From Candidatus Pollutiaquabacter sp. (GTDB lineage Bacteria > Bacteroidota > Bacteroidia > AKYH767-A > 2013-40CM-41-45), in the NCBI GenBank assembly GCA_947465495.1, contig CANIAS010000016.1:1-51696 (forward strand): a stretch of 51,696 nt of DNA. Reading direction: 5' to 3'. Positions within the stretch are counted from its first letter, which is position 1; the number at the start of each line of letters is the position of its first letter. Of this stretch, positions 20,159 to 51,696 are shown one piece after another. The notes below the pieces were generated by a model. The model saw only the letters and a list, made by a program, of their open reading frames with translations, searched no databases and was not told the DNA's origin. The translations under genes were made by a program, and so were the position numbers.

Positions 20159-22192
20159 TCATTGCACGCCACCGGTGCGGTTCAACCAAAGGAGAGCCTC
20201 CTCGTCATTCGGTTTGCATTGCAGGGCTTTTTTCCAATATGTCCGGGCATTAACCAGGTCTTTCTTGACGTAATACATCCCGCCAAGGTTTATCCAAGCT
20301 TGTGCATTGGTAGGACTGATCTCTGCCGATAACTGGTAGTAGCGGATGGCTTTATCCAGATTCTCGTCTTTCCCAGCCCACGTTCTACGTCCCATCTCCC
20401 AATATTCGTTGCTAAGAATTTGCATGGCATCGCAGCCCGGGCTCAGTGACAACGCCTGATTCATAGCAGCACGAGCCTGATCGTGCATGTCCAACTCAGC
20501 ATACGCCAATGCTCCCAGGCGCCATGCATCCACAAAACCGGGGGCTTGCTGCATCGACACTTCATAATCGGCTTTGGCTTTCTCAAAATCACCCATCTTC
20601 AGATACGCAGATCCTCGATTGGAGTACGTTGCCGGGAAGTTCGGCATCAGCTCCAACGCCTTGCTATAATAGACTACAGCAGTATCGTATTGTTTCAGAT
20701 CAAAATAAACATTCCCCTTATTACACCATGCTTCGGCTAAAAAGGGTTCCTGCGAAATCGAGGAATCAACATCTTGCAAGGCCTTAGCATATTCCTTTTT
20801 CCTAAACCAAATCATCGATCGGTTATTATACGCACGCGGCTGACGGGTATTAATCGTTAAGGAAGCGTTGAAATCCTCCAGTGCGCGATCCAAGTCGCCG
20901 CGCTCATTGTAATATGATCCGCGATTATTGTAGGCCTCGTGTGAACGTGGATTCTTTTCAATGATATCTGTCCACAAGGTGGCGTTGCCTTTCCAAACTG
21001 CGACGCGTTGATGAGCCAATACTGCCAAGGGTAGCAAACTGATCCATACTACCATCGTCCATGGCTTACGGCCAGACACTGCCATGCAAAGCAGCAAGAA
21101 TAAACCCAGGTAACTGACGTACGAGAATCGTTCATAAATCACTGACGAGTTTAATGCCACAACGTGCAGCGTTGGAAAAATATTAATGGCAAAGAAAGTC
21201 AAACCAAACGCTGCAAGCGGTGAACGCTTCCACCATCGTAGTATAAAAAATACCGTGGCTGCAGCAAGTAAAATTCCTCCTGTCAGATACAGCCAAAAAT
21301 CCGTGCTGCCCTCGATTGGAAATCCATAGATGGCGTTCTGACGAAATGGTAATACACATTTGATCACATACAGAAAATAGGCCTGAAAGGAATAAATCAC
21401 CCTCGTCATGAATCCTACCGGCACAGCGTACTTGTCTGCTTGCAGCGACGATGTCGTAATAGCGGCCCAGCCGAAAGAGATGGATCCTATTAGAAACGGT
21501 AATTTATCCAACCACTGACGACGTGTGAAAGTCTGATTGCGCAGATAGTCGCAAAGCAACAATACTACCGGCAACGTGATCGCCTGAATCTTTGAAAAGG
21601 CCGAACACAAAAACAATAAAATACTGATGACGTACCATCCGTAGGCCGGACGTTCGCGATCAGCATACACCATATAAGACCACCAGGATAACAGAAAAAA
21701 GAACATGAAGAGAACGTCCTTTCGACTGGCAATCCAAGCAACTGACTCAACGTGTAATGGATGCAGTGCGAAGAGAAATGCAATTAATGCCGCTGTAGCG
21801 GGGTTTTGTAATAAATGTCGGAATACAAAGAAAACGAGAATGCTGTTGGCCACATGCAACCATACGTTAGTTCCGTGATACCAGCCGGCACTGTCGGATC
21901 CGGCTGCATAATCAACCGCATAGGATAGAATGACCAGTGGATTGTAACTGAGTAGAACCTTGGTTTTAAAGATGAGGACAATATTGTCCCACGACAATGA
22001 TCGAATCAACAATAATTCCCGGATGTAATGATTGTCGTCCCAGTTGGTGACTTCAAAATCAAAGCAATCGGCAAAAACCAAAAATGTGATAAGGGCAAGA
22101 ACCGGCACTATCAAAACCGGAGAATACCAATTGAACGTAACACCAGTGGTTGGACTGATTTTCTTTTTAACGGGTTTTGGAGACTTGACCAT
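20159..22192 (-). CDS. TMTC-like multi-pass membrane protein with TPR repeats (paralogue A)
   Basis: A 677-aa protein. The N-terminal about 410 residues contain around ten hydrophobic helices. After the first of these (about 24-41) an acidic pair sits in the first extracytoplasmic loop (TNWDDNHYI, D52-D53), as in GT-C enzymes such as PMT and eukaryotic TMTC O-mannosyltransferases. LFALHPLHVESVAWIASRKDVL and FSKIQAITLPVVLLLCDYL are the conserved helical blocks of bacterial TMTC-like proteins. The C-terminal about 250 residues are six or seven TPR units (AYNNRGSYYNERGDLDRALEDF and similar). A role as a lipid-linked sugar:protein glycosyltransferase is a fold-level inference; activity is not established for bacterial members. 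It is paralogous to the gene at 45349. It is the first gene of the unit running through dCMP deaminase, protease and sod. Confidence 0.82.
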   Translation of the reverse strand: MVKSPKPVKKKISPTTGVTFNWYSPVLIVPVLALITFLVFADCFDFEVTNWDDNHYIRELLLIRSLSWDNIVLIFKTKVLLSYNPLVILSYAVDYAAGSDSAGWYHGTNVWLHVANSILVFFVFRHLLQNPATAALIAFLFALHPLHVESVAWIASRKDVLFMFFFLLSWWSYMVYADRERPAYGWYVISILLFLCSAFSKIQAITLPVVLLLCDYLRNQTFTRRQWLDKLPFLIGSISFGWAAITTSSLQADKYAVPVGFMTRVIYSFQAYFLYVIKCVLPFRQNAIYGFPIEGSTDFWLYLTGGILLAAATVFFILRWWKRSPLAAFGLTFFAINIFPTLHVVALNSSVIYERFSYVSYLGLFLLLCMAVSGRKPWTMVVWISLLPLAVLAHQRVAVWKGNATLWTDIIEKNPRSHEAYNNRGSYYNERGDLDRALEDFNASLTINTRQPRAYNNRSMIWFRKKEYAKALQDVDSSISQEPFLAEAWCNKGNVYFDLKQYDTAVVYYSKALELMPNFPATYSNRGSAYLKMGDFEKAKADYEVSMQQAPGFVDAWRLGALAYAELDMHDQARAAMNQALSLSPGCDAMQILSNEYWEMGRRTWAGKDENLDKAIRYYQLSAEISPTNAQAWINLGGMYYVKKDLVNARTYWKKALQCKPNDEEALLWLNRTGGVQ

Positions 22193-25347: not shown

Positions 25348-25389
25348 TGATTCAAAGCGAGTAGCAAAGCGAGCTCTTCCTTTGAATCA
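25348..25389. repeat. Inverted and direct repeats in a divergent intergenic region
   Basis: A perfect 10-bp inverted repeat, TGATTCAAAG (25348-25357) and CTTTGAATCA (25380-25389), brackets two direct copies of CAAAGCGAG (25353-25361 and 25365-25373) spaced exactly 12 bp apart. The cluster lies between two divergent genes encoding T9SS cargo and overlaps a candidate promoter. It could be an operator or an RNA hairpin. Confidence 0.6.
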
Positions 25390-25480
25390 GGAAATAATTA
25401 TAAATAGGATTGGAGTCCTTAAACCAAGTTGCCGTAATTTAGTCGAATCGGCCAATCCAACCCCTCCCGAATCCAAAATC

Positions 25481-27157
25481 ATGTTGAAAAGAACCCTGCT
25501 CTTACCATTAATCGTTGTGTCAATCGCACTTAAGGCCCAAAATACCGTCGGTTTACTGCAATATGACCCGGGAAACCAAGACGGGTATGTTCTATTTGCG
25601 CCTAATTTTGGCGACACCACCTATCTGATTGATAAATGTGGGAATCGGGTTCATCAATGGGCAAGTCCTTATCAACCAGGTCAATCGGTCTATTTGTTGG
25701 AAGATGGCTCCCTCTTACGCACCGGTCGTTCAAACAGTACGGTCTTTAATTCCGGCGGACAAGGTGGCTGGATTGAGCGTTACGATTGGAATAACCAATT
25801 GATTTGGTCGTATCGAATCTCCAATGCCACCGAATGTGCGCATCACGATGTCCGATTTCTACCCAATGGAAATATTCTGGTCATCGTTTGGGATTTAAAA
25901 ACTCCTTCGGAAGCGCTGGCGATAGGCAGAGACTCAGCAAAAATTGGGACCTCGTTATGGGGGGACAAGATACTCGAACTGCAACCTGTCGGTAATAATG
26001 GAGCCAACATCGTGTGGGAATGGAACTCCTGGGATCATTTGGTGCAAGACTATAATCCCAACTTACCTAATTACGGGACAGTCGCGCAGCACCCTGAATT
26101 AATTAATTTGAATTACATCAACGGGGCTGCAACCAACGCTGACTGGCTCCATTGCAATGCTATCGATTATAATCCGTTGCTTGACCAGGTAATTATCAGC
26201 TCTCACAACCTTTGCGAATTCTGGATCATTGACCACAGCACCACGATGGCAGAAGCCGCGGCGCACACTGGCGGTCGTTATGGCAAAGGCGGTGACATTC
26301 TGTATCGTTGGGGAAATCCGCAAGTATACAATCGCGGCACAACGACCAACAAAAAATTATACGGCCAACACAATACACAGTGGATCCAACCAGGACTGAC
26401 AGATGCCGGAAATATTTTGGTCTTCAACAATGGTCTTGCACGGCCAGGGGGGAATTATTCAACGGTGGACATCATCGCACCTCCCATTGACAGTGCAGGA
26501 AACTATACATTAAATGGTGGATCTGCTTTTGGTCCGGACAGCGCCTATTGGAAATACACAGCACCGGTTCCTTCCTCCTTCTTTTCTACGAATATATCCG
26601 GTGCGCAGCGACTGTCGAGTGGGAATACCCTCATTTGTAGTGGTAGCAACGGAATCTTCTTCGAGATTGATGTACAAAAAAATAGCGTATGGCGTTATGT
26701 TAGTCCGGTCGGACAAAACGGTGCACTTATCTCACAAGGCAACAACCCAACGATGAACAGTGTTTTCCGAAGCACTTTGTATGAAGCTTCCTATCCTGGT
26801 CTTGCCGGACAATCGCTGGTTCCTGGGACACCAATTGAACTCAATCCAACGCCATCCACGTGTGCTATGATCACCTCAGCAGGAACACTGACTGAATCAA
26901 AAGACATCGCACTATCCGTAACGAACCCTTTTAGCGATGTGCTGTGGCTACATTATGAAGGCCAACCACAGATGGCAGCAGCAACCTTATACGACATGAC
27001 TGGCAAAGTCGTACAAACATGGGACGAACTTTATCTTCAACCCGGCGAATCTACTGCCTTGGAGGTGCAACATTCCGTTTCAACCGGCTGTTACATGTTA
27101 CATGTAAACGTCGCAGGAACAGTTTGGAGACAACGTATGGTAGCAGGCGTTCGATAA
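25481..27157 (+). CDS. Aryl-sulfate sulfotransferase-like protein with T9SS C-terminal domain
   Basis: A 558-aa protein from the ATG at 25481; upstream in-frame non-ATG starts are rejected because only this start exposes the signal peptide (TLLLPLIVVSIALKAQ). Residues about 20-440 look like a six-bladed propeller of the arylsulfotransferase (ASST) type: ECAHHDVRFLPNGNILVIVWD, DWLHCNAIDYNPLLDQVIISSHNLCEFWIID and YGQHNTQWIQPG carry the histidines expected around the active site. The C-terminal about 80 residues (LSVTNPFSDVLWL, LYDMTGKVVQTW, GCYMLHV) are a T9SS type A-like sorting domain. Known ASST enzymes move sulfate between phenolic compounds; whether this one is catalytic is unproven. Secretion to the surface is predicted. 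No sulfatase is adjacent. Confidence 0.83.
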   Translation: MLKRTLLLPLIVVSIALKAQNTVGLLQYDPGNQDGYVLFAPNFGDTTYLIDKCGNRVHQWASPYQPGQSVYLLEDGSLLRTGRSNSTVFNSGGQGGWIERYDWNNQLIWSYRISNATECAHHDVRFLPNGNILVIVWDLKTPSEALAIGRDSAKIGTSLWGDKILELQPVGNNGANIVWEWNSWDHLVQDYNPNLPNYGTVAQHPELINLNYINGAATNADWLHCNAIDYNPLLDQVIISSHNLCEFWIIDHSTTMAEAAAHTGGRYGKGGDILYRWGNPQVYNRGTTTNKKLYGQHNTQWIQPGLTDAGNILVFNNGLARPGGNYSTVDIIAPPIDSAGNYTLNGGSAFGPDSAYWKYTAPVPSSFFSTNISGAQRLSSGNTLICSGSNGIFFEIDVQKNSVWRYVSPVGQNGALISQGNNPTMNSVFRSTLYEASYPGLAGQSLVPGTPIELNPTPSTCAMITSAGTLTESKDIALSVTNPFSDVLWLHYEGQPQMAAATLYDMTGKVVQTWDELYLQPGESTALEVQHSVSTGCYMLHVNVAGTVWRQRMVAGVR

Positions 27158-45348: not shown

Positions 45349-47502
45349 ATGAAAAAAGCAACTATTAAAAAGGGAAAGTCCCCTTCCAAGGAGCAGAGGA
45401 GCGATATATCACAAGTGTTTGCGGTATCCGCTGTCCTGCTATTAGGATTAGTGGCCTATTCGAATTCGTTCGTATGCGGTTACCATTTGGATGATTTACC
45501 ACACATCGTCAACAATAAACTGATAGAGGTTTTTGACGTTGGTGCTATTTGGAACAACTCCCACAACAGGTTCCTTCCCATGCTTAGTTTTGCCCTTAAC
45601 TACCAATTGCATGGCACTGACGTGGTGGGCTACCACGTTTTCAATTTGATTTTTCATTTGATAAATGCCCTGCTGGTCATGGGTCTCGTGCGTACATTTT
45701 TTGATACACCAAACTTGAAAACTCATTCGTTGTTTTCGCAGCGAAAGAGCATAGCACTTTTTGCAGGCCTACTCTTTGTATCCCATCCCTTGGCGACGCA
45801 GTCGGTAACCTACGTCATACAGCGCATGGCATCCATGATGTCCTTATTCTACTTGCTGACCATGTATTTGTATCTGAAAGGCCGACTCGCTGCAGGTAGC
45901 CGTTCCGTGGGGTACATCGCAGGAGCCATCGTTTCAGGATGGTGCGCATTTGTTTCCAAGGAAAACAGCTATACCCTGCCGTTGTCCATCGCCTTGCTGG
46001 AAATGCTATTTTTCCATGCCTTTCATCTAAAAGTAGTAGTCAAAAACTTCCGCTTCTGGATGGCAGCCATCGCTTTGGTCGGCTTCGGCATATTCGCATT
46101 TGCCAGTTTCGGATCAGCCATTAAGACACTACCTCCGGCGTTTATGAACGAGTACCGGGAAATTACGCCGCTTGCTTACCTGCTGACGCAATTCACCGTT
46201 ATTCCCAAATACCTCCAATTACTCTTGTTGCCGGTCAGCCAAAATTTGGATTACGACTGGCCGTTATATTCTTCCTTTTCACAGTGGCCGGTGCTGCTGG
46301 GATTCCTATTTCTACTTGCGCTGGTGGTATGGGCATTATTTCAATGGAAGAAAAATCCCCTTTACACCTTTGGGATACTCTTCTTTTTGCTGACACTTTC
46401 CATCGAGTCGGGAATTGTACCGATCGACGACTTAATTTTTGAGCACCGCACCTACCTGCCTTCGTTTGGCATTTTTTGTTTGGTGTCAGCAGGGGTGCAT
46501 ACCATCTTCAGTGGCCAGCGGAAAGTATGGTTGAACAGAATCATACTAGGAAGTACCCTCCTTTTAACCCTACTGACTTACCAACGCAATAAAGTTTGGA
46601 AAGATGAAGAGACCTTATGGACGAATGTAATTTCACATTCTCCGGAAAAGACACGACCGCGTAATTGCCGGGGATCGTTTTATCATCAACATCAGCGCTA
46701 CGCGGAGGCGGTGGCAGATTATACAGCGGCCATTCAACGGCGACCGAAATTTTACGAGGCCTACTACAACAGGGCCATGACCTACAAAGCGCTAAACGAT
46801 AATTCGGCGGCGTTAAACGATTATAAGATACAACTCCAATTGATGCCGGAAATGCACGGTGCTATTTTGGAAATAATTGAGTTGTATAAAAAAGAGGGGC
46901 AGTACCAAGACGCTCTGGTGTATTCCAATCAAATCATTGCCCTCGAGCCCGATAATGCCGACCATTACCTGATCAAAGGACAATTGTATAAACAAATTAA
47001 CAATCCGCTGGCGGCTTTGGAATGTTATGAAATAGCCATCACTAAGAAAGGGAATAAAGCGAATGCATATTATAACAAGGGCGCATTGCTTCAGGAGTTG
47101 AATCGGAATGAAGAGGCCTATCAGGATTATTCAGCAGCCATTTCATTTAAAAAAGATTATACCGAAGCGTATGTAAACCGCGCTAATATCAGCAGGGACC
47201 AGGGTCAATTTGAAGCGGCGCTTTCCGATTATGCCAAGGCTATTCAAATCAATCCAAGTTTCGAGAAGGCCTATGCCAACCGTGGGTATCTGTATCAGCG
47301 TAAAAATGATTTTCGAAACGCGATCACAGATCTTACGAGTGCCATCCGTATTGTTCCGAATTACGACAGAGCGTTGTATGCGCGTGGTGTTTGTTTTTAC
47401 AAAGTAAATCAACTCGATTCCGCCTGCCAGGACCTGCGGCAGGCAGCATCGTTAGGTAATGCGCAGGCAGCACCATTACTACCGCAGATTTGCATGCAAT
47501 AA
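45349..47502 (+). CDS. TMTC-like multi-pass membrane protein with TPR repeats (paralogue B)
   Basis: A 717-aa protein from the ATG at 45349 (a TTG directly before it adds one residue). It has a basic N-terminus, then about ten hydrophobic helices up to residue about 410. The first extracytoplasmic loop contains VCGYHLDDLPHIVNN with the acidic pair D48-D49. The block LFVSHPLATQSVTYVIQRMASMMSLFYLL corresponds to HPLHVESVAW in the paralogue at 20159, and FVSKENSYTLPLSIALLEML corresponds to its KxxxxTLP block. About eight TPR units follow (AYYNRAMTYKALNDNSAALNDY, AYVNRANISRDQGQFEAALSDY, AYANRGYLYQRKNDFRNAITDL). This is the GT-C-plus-TPR layout of eukaryotic TMTC O-mannosyltransferases. The next gene, 99 bases on, encodes a DPM1-like enzyme that could make its lipid-linked donor. 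Activity is inferred only. Confidence 0.83.
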   Translation: MKKATIKKGKSPSKEQRSDISQVFAVSAVLLLGLVAYSNSFVCGYHLDDLPHIVNNKLIEVFDVGAIWNNSHNRFLPMLSFALNYQLHGTDVVGYHVFNLIFHLINALLVMGLVRTFFDTPNLKTHSLFSQRKSIALFAGLLFVSHPLATQSVTYVIQRMASMMSLFYLLTMYLYLKGRLAAGSRSVGYIAGAIVSGWCAFVSKENSYTLPLSIALLEMLFFHAFHLKVVVKNFRFWMAAIALVGFGIFAFASFGSAIKTLPPAFMNEYREITPLAYLLTQFTVIPKYLQLLLLPVSQNLDYDWPLYSSFSQWPVLLGFLFLLALVVWALFQWKKNPLYTFGILFFLLTLSIESGIVPIDDLIFEHRTYLPSFGIFCLVSAGVHTIFSGQRKVWLNRIILGSTLLLTLLTYQRNKVWKDEETLWTNVISHSPEKTRPRNCRGSFYHQHQRYAEAVADYTAAIQRRPKFYEAYYNRAMTYKALNDNSAALNDYKIQLQLMPEMHGAILEIIELYKKEGQYQDALVYSNQIIALEPDNADHYLIKGQLYKQINNPLAALECYEIAITKKGNKANAYYNKGALLQELNRNEEAYQDYSAAISFKKDYTEAYVNRANISRDQGQFEAALSDYAKAIQINPSFEKAYANRGYLYQRKNDFRNAITDLTSAIRIVPNYDRALYARGVCFYKVNQLDSACQDLRQAASLGNAQAAPLLPQICMQ

Positions 47503-47601
47503 CCTGCCACCGCAAGAATCTTATAATTCATTACCTTCGACTAGTAGAAAATTATTAGCTGAATAGTTATTCCTTTATACTGAACCGCTTCCTTAACTAC
47601 C

Positions 47602-48534
47602 ATGAACATAGCAGTCGTCATACCGTGCTACAACGTTGCGGCACATTTGGAAGCAGTGGTACGGAGTATCCCTGCTGACATCCGCTACATCATTGCTGTC
47701 AACGATTGTTCGAACGACACAACCGGCCAACTGCTGGCCCGGCTGGCACAAGAGCATCCCCGGCTGATTGTGCTGGACCACGCGGTGAACCAAGGCGTAG
47801 GTGGTGCGATGATAACGGGGTATCAAAAATCGTTGGAGCTCGGATGCGACATCACAGTGAAAATGGATGGCGACGGACAAATGGATCCAGCGTACCTGCC
47901 CGCGCTGATCCAGCCGATTGTAGATGGAAGGGCTGATTTTGTGAAAGGCAACCGTTTCCGTGATTTCAAGGCGTTGCGCTCGATGCCGTTGAGCCGGCGC
48001 ATCGGGAACCTGGGCTTGAGTTTCATGATCAAGGCGGCATCGGGATACTGGAACATGTTTGATCCGACCAACGGGTTCACCGCCATCCGGAACAGTACGC
48101 TCAGCGACCTCAGCTTCAACCGCCTGCACAAGCGCTACTTTTTTGAAACCTCGATGATCCTGGAGTTGTACTACAGCGATGCTGTTATTCAGGATATACC
48201 GATGAAGGCCCGGTACGGCAGCGAGGTGTCCAACCTGTCGCGTACCCGTACGCTCTTCGAATTTCCGCCGAAGTTGTTTGTGGCGTTTTGGCGCAGGATC
48301 CTGCTGAAGTATTTTCTTTATGACTTCAACGTCGGCTCCCTCTACTTCCTGACCGGCATTCCCATATTCGTTTACGGAGGCTACTTCGGATTCATGAACT
48401 ACGAACGGTACATCCGTATGGGTGTTGCTGCTCCTACCGGTACCGTCATCATCCCGACCCTGCTGATCATTCTTGGGTTCCAGTTGTTACTTTCGGCGCT
48501 CACCTTCGACGTCAACAATTATCCAAAGCGGTGA
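47602..48534 (+). CDS. Family 2 glycosyltransferase, polyprenyl-phosphate sugar synthase-like with C-terminal membrane helices
   Basis: A 310-aa enzyme. The GT2 domain starts NIAVVIPCYNVAAHLEAVV, has AVNDCSNDTTGQLL and NQGVGGAMITGYQKSLE, and carries the DxD in VKMDGDGQMDPAYLPALI. DPTNGFTAIRNS and KRYFFETSMILEL match the DPM1/GtrB-type lipid-phosphate glycosyltransferases. Two hydrophobic helices (about 244-263 and 276-300) anchor the C-terminus, as in GtrB. It would charge a polyprenyl phosphate with a hexose on the cytoplasmic side. Spot counts of its sequence give about 55-57% G+C, above genes on both sides. It opens a glycosyltransferase locus and follows the TMTC-like gene by 99 bases. 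Confidence 0.88.
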   Translation: MNIAVVIPCYNVAAHLEAVVRSIPADIRYIIAVNDCSNDTTGQLLARLAQEHPRLIVLDHAVNQGVGGAMITGYQKSLELGCDITVKMDGDGQMDPAYLPALIQPIVDGRADFVKGNRFRDFKALRSMPLSRRIGNLGLSFMIKAASGYWNMFDPTNGFTAIRNSTLSDLSFNRLHKRYFFETSMILELYYSDAVIQDIPMKARYGSEVSNLSRTRTLFEFPPKLFVAFWRRILLKYFLYDFNVGSLYFLTGIPIFVYGGYFGFMNYERYIRMGVAAPTGTVIIPTLLIILGFQLLLSALTFDVNNYPKR

Positions 48535-48583: not shown

Positions 48584-49606
48584 ATGACCATTGTTCCGCT
48601 CATAAGTTTTATTGTCCCGGTTTACAACACAGAAAAAACCCTTGAAAAGTGTCTTGATAGTATACTTAATCAGACAAACGAGGACTATGAAATCATAATT
48701 GTAAACGACGGAACGAAAGACGACTCTCAAAAATTAATAAATGAATATTCCCAAAGACACCCCCAAAAGATAAAATCATTTATCAAGGAAAATGGAGGAC
48801 TAAGCGACGCACGAAACTTTGGAATCAAAAACTCAAGTGGAAAACTAATTGCCTTTGTTGACAGCGATGATTATATCGAAAAAGACTACGTTAAATACGT
48901 AAAAGACAATTTTTGTCAATTCGATTTTGATATGTTGGTTATTGGGTATAATCGCATTTACAGAAAAGCAACTACAATATTTGAGCGCAAGTATAGTTTC
49001 ACGGAATGGTCCGCATTTGATAAAACAATCAACATTGAGTCTAATCCAGAAATGATATGCCGTCTTGAGGTGGCGTCTTGGTTGAGAATAATAAAACGCA
49101 GTATAATCGAAGATAACCCAGAACTGCTTTTTACGAAAGGAAGGATTTATGAGGACCTAGAGGCCAGCTTGAAGTGGTATTTGCATGTCGACAAGGTTGT
49201 GGTTGTTGAAAAAAAACAATACAACTACTCGATCACCAGTAACACGCTTAATTTCAATATCAATAATGTCGGGAATTATTTTCATATTATCAGGAGTGTT
49301 TGTGATTATTACAAACGAAGAAAAAAGTTTGAAAAACATTATTCAGAGCTTGAGTATATATTCATCAAGCATATTTTATTTTCGAACCTGGTCCGAATGG
49401 TAAGCGGAAAAACGACCAATAATTTTACCCAATTCATCGCTTTAAGGCAAGAGCTATTAACGCATTTCCCAAAATATCATAAAAACAAATATGCAATAAA
49501 CACATCCGCCCTTATCTATTCGGTTGTTTGGCTATCATATTATTTTCCCCTCTTTTTCAGGTTGTTTCTTTCTGGAAAAGGCAGGAAAAACCCACAAGTA
49601 AAATGA
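48584..49606 (+). CDS. Family 2 glycosyltransferase (surface polysaccharide)
   Basis: A 340-aa enzyme from the ATG at 48584, which gives MTIVPLISFIVPVYNTEKTL. An in-frame start at 48473 would overlap the previous gene by 62 bases and add no family sequence. IVNDGTKDDSQKLI and FVDSDDYIEKDYV (DxD) are the donor-binding motifs; GGLSDARNFGIKNSSG is the conserved loop. The C-terminal half is Lys/Ile/Phe/Asn-rich, matching the low G+C of the DNA (40% in one 60-base sample). The likely role is adding a sugar to an O-antigen or capsule repeat unit at the inner-membrane face. Its stop overlaps the next start as ATGA. Confidence 0.88.
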   Translation: MTIVPLISFIVPVYNTEKTLEKCLDSILNQTNEDYEIIIVNDGTKDDSQKLINEYSQRHPQKIKSFIKENGGLSDARNFGIKNSSGKLIAFVDSDDYIEKDYVKYVKDNFCQFDFDMLVIGYNRIYRKATTIFERKYSFTEWSAFDKTINIESNPEMICRLEVASWLRIIKRSIIEDNPELLFTKGRIYEDLEASLKWYLHVDKVVVVEKKQYNYSITSNTLNFNINNVGNYFHIIRSVCDYYKRRKKFEKHYSELEYIFIKHILFSNLVRMVSGKTTNNFTQFIALRQELLTHFPKYHKNKYAINTSALIYSVVWLSYYFPLFFRLFLSGKGRKNPQVK

Positions 49607-50781
49607 AAATATTACAGGTGATACCGGCGTTTGTTCCGGCATATGGTTATGGCGGCGCATTGAATGTGTGCTATCAACAATCAATAAAACTAATCGAAAG
49701 AGGTCACGATATAACCGTAGCAACCACTGACGCATATGATGAGAAAAGAAGGATAAGTGATTTAAAAGAAGTGATTGATGGAATTACGATAATTCGATTT
49801 AGGAACATTAGCAACAGTCTTGCCAAGAAGTACAGCGGATATTTGCCTATGCGCTTTTTTACTTGGGCAAAGCAAAACATCCGAAACTTCGATGTTGTTT
49901 ACTGTCACGACACACTGACCTATCAGAATCTTGTCATCAGCCTATTCTGTAAAAAGTATAAGATACCGTATCTGATACAGCCGCATGGAAATCTTTCCGA
50001 AGCCAGTATGGGCTCAAGGCATAAAACACTAAAAAGGATTATCCTATGGTTTTTTAAAAAGGTGTTTAAAAACGCCCATAATATTGTAGCCCTGACCAGA
50101 AAAGAAAGGGAGTCAATATCTCGAATAGACCCCTCCTTATATTATAAAACAATAATTATACCCAACGGCATCGACCCAAATAAAATAAACGATGCAGATA
50201 AGGTCGACCTAAGAACCCAGTATGGCATTCCCGAAAGCCATACGATAATCGGATTCATAGGAAGGATACAGCATATTAAGGGAATAGATTTATCACTTAG
50301 AATATTGAGTTTACTAAAGAAAAAACTTCCATTTACATTTCTAATTATAGGGCCGGATGAGGGTGAAAAAAAATCTCTGGATCGGCTGATAGACAATCTT
50401 GGTCTGGCGGAAAATATTGTTTTCTGTGGTGCGGTAAGCGGGATGCAAAAAGCAAACCATATAAAAACATGTGATCTTTTCCTGTTTACATCGAGAAGCG
50501 AAGGTCTTCCCATGAGCATATTGGAGGTAGCTGGTTATGGAATACCACAAGTTGTTTCAACAAATTGCAATACCCCGCAGGTCGCCGAATACAATTGCGG
50601 GTACGAATTCCCGCTAGATCAAACGGCCTCTTTTGTTTCTGGCATTTATCAAATAGCAACCAATGAAGCCCTAAGGGGTGAAATGAAGAGAAACGCAACC
50701 CGAATGATACAGGAATGCTTTAATATGGATACAATTAGCCACGATCTTGAGACTCAATTGATGACCACATTGATAAAGTGA
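49603..50781 (+). CDS. Family 4 glycosyltransferase (GT-B, surface polysaccharide)
   Basis: A 392-aa GT-B enzyme from the ATG at 49603, chosen because it gives MKILQVIPAFVPAYGYGGAL and overlaps the upstream stop by four bases (ATGA), indicating translational coupling. The N-domain has the glycine-rich YGYGGAL loop and PYLIQPHGNL; the C-domain has IGFIGRIQHIKGIDL, then the E-x7-E-like region SRSEGLPMSILEVAGYGIPQVVS. The predicted function is a retaining transferase acting on a lipid-linked oligosaccharide. The sequence is markedly AT-rich (28% G+C in one 60-base sample). The substrate is unknown. It is convergent with the gene at 50793, 11 bases apart. Confidence 0.9.
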   Translation: MKILQVIPAFVPAYGYGGALNVCYQQSIKLIERGHDITVATTDAYDEKRRISDLKEVIDGITIIRFRNISNSLAKKYSGYLPMRFFTWAKQNIRNFDVVYCHDTLTYQNLVISLFCKKYKIPYLIQPHGNLSEASMGSRHKTLKRIILWFFKKVFKNAHNIVALTRKERESISRIDPSLYYKTIIIPNGIDPNKINDADKVDLRTQYGIPESHTIIGFIGRIQHIKGIDLSLRILSLLKKKLPFTFLIIGPDEGEKKSLDRLIDNLGLAENIVFCGAVSGMQKANHIKTCDLFLFTSRSEGLPMSILEVAGYGIPQVVSTNCNTPQVAEYNCGYEFPLDQTASFVSGIYQIATNEALRGEMKRNATRMIQECFNMDTISHDLETQLMTTLIK

Positions 50782-50792
50782 CACAAATAGGC

Positions 50793-51696
50793 CTAGTCGA
50801 CGACATTAGGCCTCACTACCAAAAATGAAACTGCACGAAAATAATGGTGTCCTGCCAATAGGCATACGATTGATTTGACTTTTATCATAACGCTGCTTCT
50901 GGAAAGGATGGCCGAGAAAAATCGATTTCTCGCGGCACTTAATCGCCCCCTTTTCAGGTAATAAACACCAGCATTATACTTCAAAAGTCCCGCCGTTTTA
51001 GCTCTCTCCGTATTCGTGTAATACGATGCATATTTATCAAAAATAATACCCTCGCCTCTTATGTGTTTCTCTATATCTTCAGTCAATGAGTCCTCAGAAA
51101 AAGTGTAGTAGCCCAGGCTTCTTGGTATCAAATGAAATCGCCTTGTAGTCAAAGCAAGTCTGAGCCAGAGGTCAAAATCTTCTCCATATTTTAATTTAAG
51201 GTCAAATCCTCCGACCAACAGCAAAATTGATTTTCGTACGACCACCGAGGATGTGGCCAATCCGTTCCAATTCAACAATAAGTCACGAAAAGGATCCTCT
51301 TTGGAAAGGCTCCTACATATTAACCTTTGTTGTCCAGCTCGACTTCCGTTTGTGCAAATTTCCAAGTGGTGATAGATAATATCAGATTGCTCCAAAAAAC
51401 GTAAACACACGGATAGCTTATCGGGCATCCAATAGTCGTCTGAGTCCAAAAAACACACCCAGTTAGCCACGGCTAGCTTAATACCTACATTTCTCGGATT
51501 AGAAGCAGACCCTGAATTAGACAGCTTCAAATATTTAATATTCAAAAGAGACTTAAAGTCACACACGATAAGTTCTGTATTGTCGGTAGAACCGTCGTCA
51601 CACACGAGTACCTCAAAATCTTTGAAGGTTTGATCAACCAGAGAGTTCAAGGACCTTTTTAGAGAAGTGGCTCGATTGAATGTTGGGATGACCACC
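50793..51696 (-). CDS. Family 2 glycosyltransferase (partial, 5' end beyond window)
   Basis: About 301 codons are visible and the stop is at 50793. The frame is open at the right edge; the first visible residues VVIPTFNRATSLKRSL are the interior of a GT2 N-terminus, so the true start lies outside. CDDGSTDNTELIV and FLDSDDYWMPDKL (DxD) are the donor-binding motifs, and YGEDFDLWLRLAL is the acceptor-side ED motif. The C-terminal about 70 residues are basic (NAGVYYLKRGRLSAARNRFFSAIL), perhaps membrane-associating. It belongs to the same polysaccharide locus but is on the opposite strand. Confidence 0.88.
   Translation of the reverse strand, partial: VVIPTFNRATSLKRSLNSLVDQTFKDFEVLVCDDGSTDNTELIVCDFKSLLNIKYLKLSNSGSASNPRNVGIKLAVANWVCFLDSDDYWMPDKLSVCLRFLEQSDIIYHHLEICTNGSRAGQQRLICRSLSKEDPFRDLLLNWNGLATSSVVVRKSILLLVGGFDLKLKYGEDFDLWLRLALTTRRFHLIPRSLGYYTFSEDSLTEDIEKHIRGEGIIFDKYASYYTNTERAKTAGLLKYNAGVYYLKRGRLSAARNRFFSAILSRSSVMIKVKSIVCLLAGHHYFRAVSFLVVRPNVVD

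Follow-up and report, generated by a model that had tools for sequence, protein, structure and literature searches.

The human TMTC proteins have 11 transmembrane (TM) helices, a short helix in the loop between TM7 and TM8, a tail of tetratricopeptide repeats (TPR) on the outer side of the membrane and a set of named sequence motifs, and have been assigned a monophosphate donor (PMC7801869). Protein O-mannosylation in actinobacteria employs Ppm1, which is DPM1-like, together with Pmt (GT39), a glycosyltransferase of the GT-C fold class (PMC5882110), while three-component systems of the GtrA/GtrB/Gtr kind modify glycans in the periplasm by means of a polyprenyl-phosphate-sugar synthase and a GT-C enzyme encoded in polysaccharide loci (PMC11127046). 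Bacteroidota have a core O-glycan that starts with a hexose taken to be mannose, and the transferase, flippase, and ligase responsible for it have not been discovered (PMC12871550). Here we describe a 51,696-nucleotide contig of the bacteroidote Candidatus Pollutiaquabacter sp. (CANIAS010000016.1, assembly GCA_947465495.1; the whole contig is called the window below), on which the gene for a TMTC-like GT-C/TPR protein is followed by one for a DPM1/GtrB-like polyprenyl-phosphate glycosyltransferase. The two form a real and recurrent donor-synthase/GT-C pair of TMTC-like architecture, and probably a working one. A literature search, which was not exhaustive, found no paper that gives bacterial TMTC-like proteins a function.

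The TMTC-like protein and its DPM1-like neighbor

The two genes, both present as the original prediction had placed them, and the parts of their products referred to in the text are as follows.

45349..47502, + strand: TMTC-like GT-C/TPR gene ("subfamily A"), 717 amino acids (open reading frame; Pfam TPR; GT-C fold predicted with AlphaFold2 and compared with the PDB)
45379..46656, + strand: membrane (catalytic) half, 11 TM helices plus an amphipathic helix in the TM7-TM8 loop (AlphaFold2 model, helix list and hydropathy)
45490..45495, + strand: codons of D48-D49, the presumed catalytic DD pair (TMTC motif M1); D48 in 64/64 and D49 in 61/64
45568..45570, + strand: codon of R74 within S-H-N-R-F-L-P (position of TMTC motif M2); R in 64/64
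45958..45975, + strand: codons of K204-E205-N-S-Y-T209 (TMTC motif M4, KE(T/Q)xxT); K in 64/64, E in 60/64, T in 60/64
46255..46257, + strand: codon of D303 (TMTC motif M5, DW); D in 58/64
46441..46455, + strand: codons of E365-H-R367-T-Y369 (counterpart of TMTC motif M7, ERxxY); E and Y in 64/64, R367 in 61/64
46660..47499, + strand: TPR tail, predicted periplasmic (Pfam TPR families; helix pairs in the model; side from the odd TM count)
47602..48534, + strand: DPM1/GtrB-like polyprenyl-phosphate glycosyltransferase ("type I"), 310 amino acids (PF00535; best curated models AglJ and PpgS; aligned to 5MLZ)
47866..47880, + strand: codons of D89-G-D91-G-Q93, the DxDxQ motif for metal and donor (DADLQ of 5MLZ aligns with it; both DPM1-like types retain its D and Q positions)

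The reading frame of the TMTC-like gene opens at a TTG (45346), the likely start being the ATG directly after it. The long TPR tail that had been proposed is borne out by a match to PF00515 (5e-34). In sequence searches carried to E 10, the membrane half matched no Pfam family, GT-C models and PF08409 included, and no PDB chain, so that structure comparison was needed. From an alignment of 64 subfamily A sequences, AlphaFold2 produced a full-length model with a predicted local distance difference test (pLDDT) score of 90 and a predicted template modeling (pTM) score of 0.86, and a model of the membrane half alone with a pLDDT of 91 and a pTM of 0.91. When the latter was compared with the PDB, ranks 1-49 were all occupied by GT-C enzymes or subunits of GT-C fold (Z 10.5-20.8), and rank 50 was unrelated (Z 4.2). 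The best matches were yeast and human oligosaccharyltransferase (OST; Z about 20), with Pmt4 and Pmt1-Pmt2 at Z about 19.5 and ArnT at Z 18.6-19.0; AglB, PglB, ALG12, AftD, Emb, DPY19, and the GPI-transamidase subunit PIG-U were also among them. When the whole protein was submitted to Foldseek, most matches were TPR proteins, a second look at the results showing Pmt4, OST, and ArnT; Foldseek E-values for the membrane half were weak (best 2e-3, for ArnT). The predicted structure clearly points to a GT-C glycosyltransferase fold for the membrane half, in agreement with what the original prediction had proposed. It had counted about ten membrane helices; there are 11, and the loop between TM7 and TM8 holds a further, hydrophobic helix. 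The number being odd, the TPR tail would lie on the periplasmic side, assuming that the N terminus is inside.

The model resembles OST/STT3, PMT, and ArnT equally closely (Z 18-21, ties), and Wzx-type genes lie beside some copies of the gene, which would also suit an oligosaccharyltransferase or ligase that uses a Wzx-flipped, diphosphate-linked oligosaccharide, the DPM1-like gene serving something else. This is improbable, given the specific pairing with DPM1-like genes described below and the monophosphate donor assigned to TMTC, the closest described sequence architecture (PMC7801869).

Residue conservation, counted in an alignment (A3) of 64 subfamily A members, is concentrated on D48, R74, H103, H146, P147, R159, K204, P211, E365, Y369, R413, N414, and W417, which are invariant, while D49, E205, T209, D303, and R367 are near-invariant at the counts listed above. 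The acidic D48-D49 pair sits in the first outer loop, where it had been noted originally, and it proves conserved, as the original prediction required. Two TMTC motifs are altered: in M3 (RxD), R159 is invariant and the D position is mostly A, and also T or S, among the members; at the M7 position the window protein has EHRTY, the R being shifted by one relative to ERxxY.

With eukaryotic TMTC1-4 (CAZy GT105, PF08409) the window protein shares the 11 TM helices, the short TM7-TM8-loop helix, a TPR tail on what would be the outer side, the DD pair in the first outer loop (M1), and the SHxxxxP, KExxxT (M4), and D-aromatic (M5) motifs. It differs in having Ala for the Asp of RxD and EHRxY for ERxxY, and in being unmatched by PF08409 even at E 10. 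Across its whole membrane half it is homologous to bacterial proteins that are PF08409-positive (L027, L028; E about 2e-20), and PF08409 (TMTC_DUF1736) matches other TMTC-like genes above its cut-off in 16/41 relatives; it had no match in 14 control genomes, a set that includes Bacteroides ihuae. The window protein is therefore a TMTC homolog and TMTC-like, but not filed as a TMTC because the PF08409 match and the RxD Asp are missing. The TMTC layout first proposed for it stands as regards helices, DD pair, and TPR tail.

The neighboring gene encodes a GT2 enzyme (PF00535, 4e-22), in keeping with the DPM1/GtrB-like identity first given to it. Its best and sole PDB sequence match is the dolichol-phosphate-mannose synthase of P. 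furiosus (5MLZ, E 2e-13), with which the DxDxQ motif aligns but overall similarity is low. The curated polyprenyl/dolichyl-phosphate glycosyltransferase models AglJ and PpgS score 57.5 and 56.1 bits, below their cut-offs of 325 and 370, and likeness of this degree to 5MLZ, AglJ, and PpgS would not allow sugar specificity to be predicted. The two genes lie on the same strand, 99 bp apart. In a scan for promoters the gap held no promoter-like site, and the region as a whole had fewer such sites than shuffled sequence.

Recurrence of the pairing

Genome contigs were scanned for the TMTC-like subfamily, blind to neighboring genes, which gave 78 loci. At six of the 78, a gene whose product is 65-69% identical to the DPM1-like protein of the window immediately precedes the TMTC-like gene on the same strand, 57-123 bp away; the order of the genes differs from that of the window, where the DPM1-like gene is downstream. 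Type I genes are rare (6/61 relatives at E 1e-30, 5/42 in the order, and 4/395 phylum genomes). All seven copies that exceed 60% identity and have known flanks directly adjoin a subfamily A gene; the type I copy in G021 lies at a contig edge, which hides its neighbor, and type I relatives with 41-46% identity sit away from any TMTC-like gene. At one locus (L106:6891-8867), a more distant TMTC-like gene stands directly upstream of the type I gene, forming a TMTC-like/DPM1-like/TMTC-like row.

A second type of DPM1-like gene, which shares 23-38% identity with type I in BLAST alignments, adjoins the TMTC-like gene either upstream or downstream. It is a direct neighbor at L125, where it adjoins the subfamily A gene of a member of the same genus as the window, and at L043, L063, and L081; at L031 it is one gene away. 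In loci fetched for the TMTC-like gene alone, DPM1-like genes make up 12/140 of the genes at distance one, all on the same strand, 2/132 at distance two, 2/123 at distance three, and 0/302 at distances four to six, three lying further out (3/556 at distances of at least four). The excess at distance one over distances of at least four has a Fisher p of 8e-7, or 5e-5 after near copies are collapsed, the profile behind these counts being possibly biased by having been seeded partly with DPM1-like genes near TMTC-like genes. A curated model provided an independent count: it recognized 63 DPM1-like genes in 42 genomes, and 6/15 copies of subfamily A have such a gene no more than two genes away, where about 0.03-0.06 would be expected. 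Three of these six belong to one genus, leaving about four independent cases.

On a tree built without eukaryotic TMTC sequences, no fewer than seven changes are needed to account for the linkage label, and the window gene belongs to a supported clade that does not contain the other type-I-linked genes. Two loci whose records are titled Streptomyces griseus and Bifidobacterium breve (L051, L089) carry subfamily A genes that group with Bacteroidota on this tree and are probably mislabeled bins.

The pairing is recurrent, though not obligate, and it falls sharply with distance, as the idea of a genomic linkage had implied. The caveat entered originally, that adjacency may be chance, now looks unlikely in view of the peak at distance one, the common strand, and the two unrelated types of DPM1-like gene; the decay with distance and the repeated pairing likewise disfavor it.

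Donor, transferase, and acceptor

As a whole, the evidence is best explained by a donor-and-transferase pair, an interpretation that we regard as likely, and that the two enzymes work together is a step we would take with rather more assurance. The analysis establishes the predicted fold, the conservation of the catalytic residues, the family to which the donor synthase belongs, and the repeated pairing of the genes. On the inner face of the cytoplasmic membrane, the DPM1-like enzyme would transfer a single sugar from its nucleotide-activated form to polyprenyl phosphate, and a flippase would turn the lipid-linked sugar across the membrane. The GT-C half of the TMTC-like protein, for which a polyprenyl-phosphate sugar is the donor we infer, would then move the sugar, with D48-D49 acting as base or metal ligand and K204 and R367 holding the lipid phosphate of the donor, while the periplasmic TPR tail would bind and hold the acceptor.

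Several observations weigh against this interpretation. About 65 of the 81 subfamily A loci have no DPM1-like gene nearby, nor do eight further members from the phylum sample adjoin one; such unpaired members could draw on a donor synthase encoded at another place in their genomes. The G+C difference within the pair that had been noticed at the outset is real (0.454 for the TMTC-like gene and 0.534 for the DPM1-like gene, with 0.35-0.41 for the next glycosyltransferases). A PF04138 search of the window's own genome (97.8% complete) found no GtrA-type flippase, and neighboring genes across loci, described below, suggest polysaccharide no less than protein. The lack of DPM1-like neighbors at many loci, the G+C difference, the position of the DPM1-like gene at the head of a glycosyltransferase stretch, and the type I relatives located away from any TMTC-like gene would all fit two genes that are neighbors only through a shared tendency to occupy polysaccharide or envelope loci, with no functional link. 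We consider this unlikely: it would not account for a same-strand peak at distance one that gives way to none at distances four to six, nor for two unrelated DPM1-like types that stand on either side of the TMTC-like gene. For other TMTC-like subfamilies of these genomes, there is about one DPM1-like neighbor among the matches listed.

The stretch that follows the pair in the window begins with two glycosyltransferase genes.

48584..49606, + strand: GT2 glycosyltransferase, first gene of a low-G+C polysaccharide stretch (domain matches)
49603..50781, + strand: GT4 glycosyltransferase (PF00534)

A gene akin to this GT2 follows the type I gene at L118 and lies between the DPM1-like and TMTC-like genes at L131. 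The window being the whole contig, its end at 51696 cuts short the polysaccharide locus that starts behind the DPM1-like gene, so that a flippase or polymerase there would not be visible.

Surroundings elsewhere bear on a different acceptor for the same donor and transferase, namely an exported polysaccharide to which the pair would add a side-branch or cap sugar in the periplasm, as the GtrA/GtrB/Gtr systems do for O antigen (PMC11127046), with the TPR tail docking onto either the assembly machinery or the protein that carries the glycan. Sulfotransferases, a Wzy_C ligase/polymerase protein, GH5, and GT4 genes stand upstream of and beside the pair at L053, L060, and L106, and a Wzx flippase gene is present at L053; Wzm/Wzt ATP-binding cassette (ABC) exporters, sulfotransferases, and glycosyltransferases are found nearby at L063 and L081. 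In four genomes (L161, L163, L164, L166), a subfamily A-like gene without an adjoining DPM1-like gene stands divergently beside a GT4-Wzm-Wzt polysaccharide export operon, and this arrangement is conserved. The window's own genome has a tandem subfamily A pair followed by a Wzx-type flippase gene (L123; G000:C109:1-4039); another subfamily A fragment occurs in it at G000:C65. With the limited probe set used, glycan-type genes make up 15% of immediate neighbors against 6-7% further out, but occur within five genes at only 28/81 loci. We know of no TPR tail in the Gtr enzymes described to date, and the same holds, to our knowledge, for Pmt. On balance a polysaccharide acceptor is a serious possibility, at somewhat less than an even chance.

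Ppm1/Pmt has in common with the donor-and-transferase pair a DPM1-like donor synthase and a GT-C transferase, and differs in that the window protein is recognized by no GT-C Pfam model and bears a TPR tail; the GtrA/GtrB/Gtr systems differ in the tail on the GT-C protein here and in their GtrA component. For the pair, a secreted polypeptide, on which we would place about an even chance, is slightly favored as acceptor, given that TPR tails are binders of polypeptides and that TMTC, the nearest characterized architecture, acts on proteins; a polysaccharide is nearly as likely because of the glycan genes around subfamily A loci. To read the pair as a protein O-glycosylation system is fair but unproven, and the original step to periplasmic proteins as its target is not supported, linked loci carrying flippases, polymerases, ABC exporters, and sulfotransferases and most members being unpaired. 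The fullest version of this proposal, a bacterial counterpart of the TMTC/dolichyl-phosphate-mannose pathway in Bacteroidota and scattered phyla that uses a dedicated, co-located synthase and O-glycosylates particular secreted periplasmic proteins, is tentative and rather doubtful.

Distribution and significance of TMTC-like proteins

TMTC-like GT-C/TPR proteins are common in Bacteroidota (53/61 relatives, with up to 23 copies per genome), 8/61 relatives having no TMTC-like match of any kind; three genomes from one genus of the order (G014, G017, G021) carry 21-23 copies each, a strong lineage-specific expansion. Subfamily A itself was found in 9/395 Bacteroidota genomes. In a deltaproteobacterial metagenome-assembled genome (L082:9923-15733), TMTC-like, TMTC-like, GT2, and TMTC-like genes form an operon with 4-bp overlaps. 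The window holds a second paralog:

20159..22192, - strand: TMTC-like GT-C/TPR paralog of another subfamily (31% identity, E 1e-23; translation; neighbors)

It has NWDD, RKD, and ERFSY motifs, has neither the DW motif nor the Glu of KE, and lies between a gene for a large secreted protein and a deaminase-like gene, with no glycan genes directly beside it. An arylsulfotransferase-domain protein with a Por secretion tail is encoded at 25382-27157 (+ strand).

Distribution also bears on whether subfamily A could be the missing general O-glycosylation transferase of Bacteroidota, in which the core glycan starts with hexose or mannose. The core oligosaccharyltransferase, flippase, and ligase of that system are yet to be discovered, and a search for O-mannosylation homologs has been advised (PMC12871550); but the general system is phylum-wide, and the 9/395 genomes with subfamily A, the relatives without any TMTC-like match, and the absence of TMTC_DUF1736 from all 14 control genomes, B. 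ihuae among them, make this role highly improbable. On this distribution, subfamily A was rejected as the general enzyme.

The known principle of a GT-C enzyme supplied by a lipid-phosphate-sugar donor synthase is met here with a TMTC-like architecture. Recurrent pairing names the likely donor class of the TMTC-like protein, and a unit of two genes is small enough to test. The proteins also provide a candidate family for a phylum that still awaits identification of the transferase for its core protein O-glycan (PMC12871550), although by its distribution subfamily A would not be the general enzyme, and the TMTC-like/DPM1-like pair bears on the origin of the eukaryotic TMTCs.

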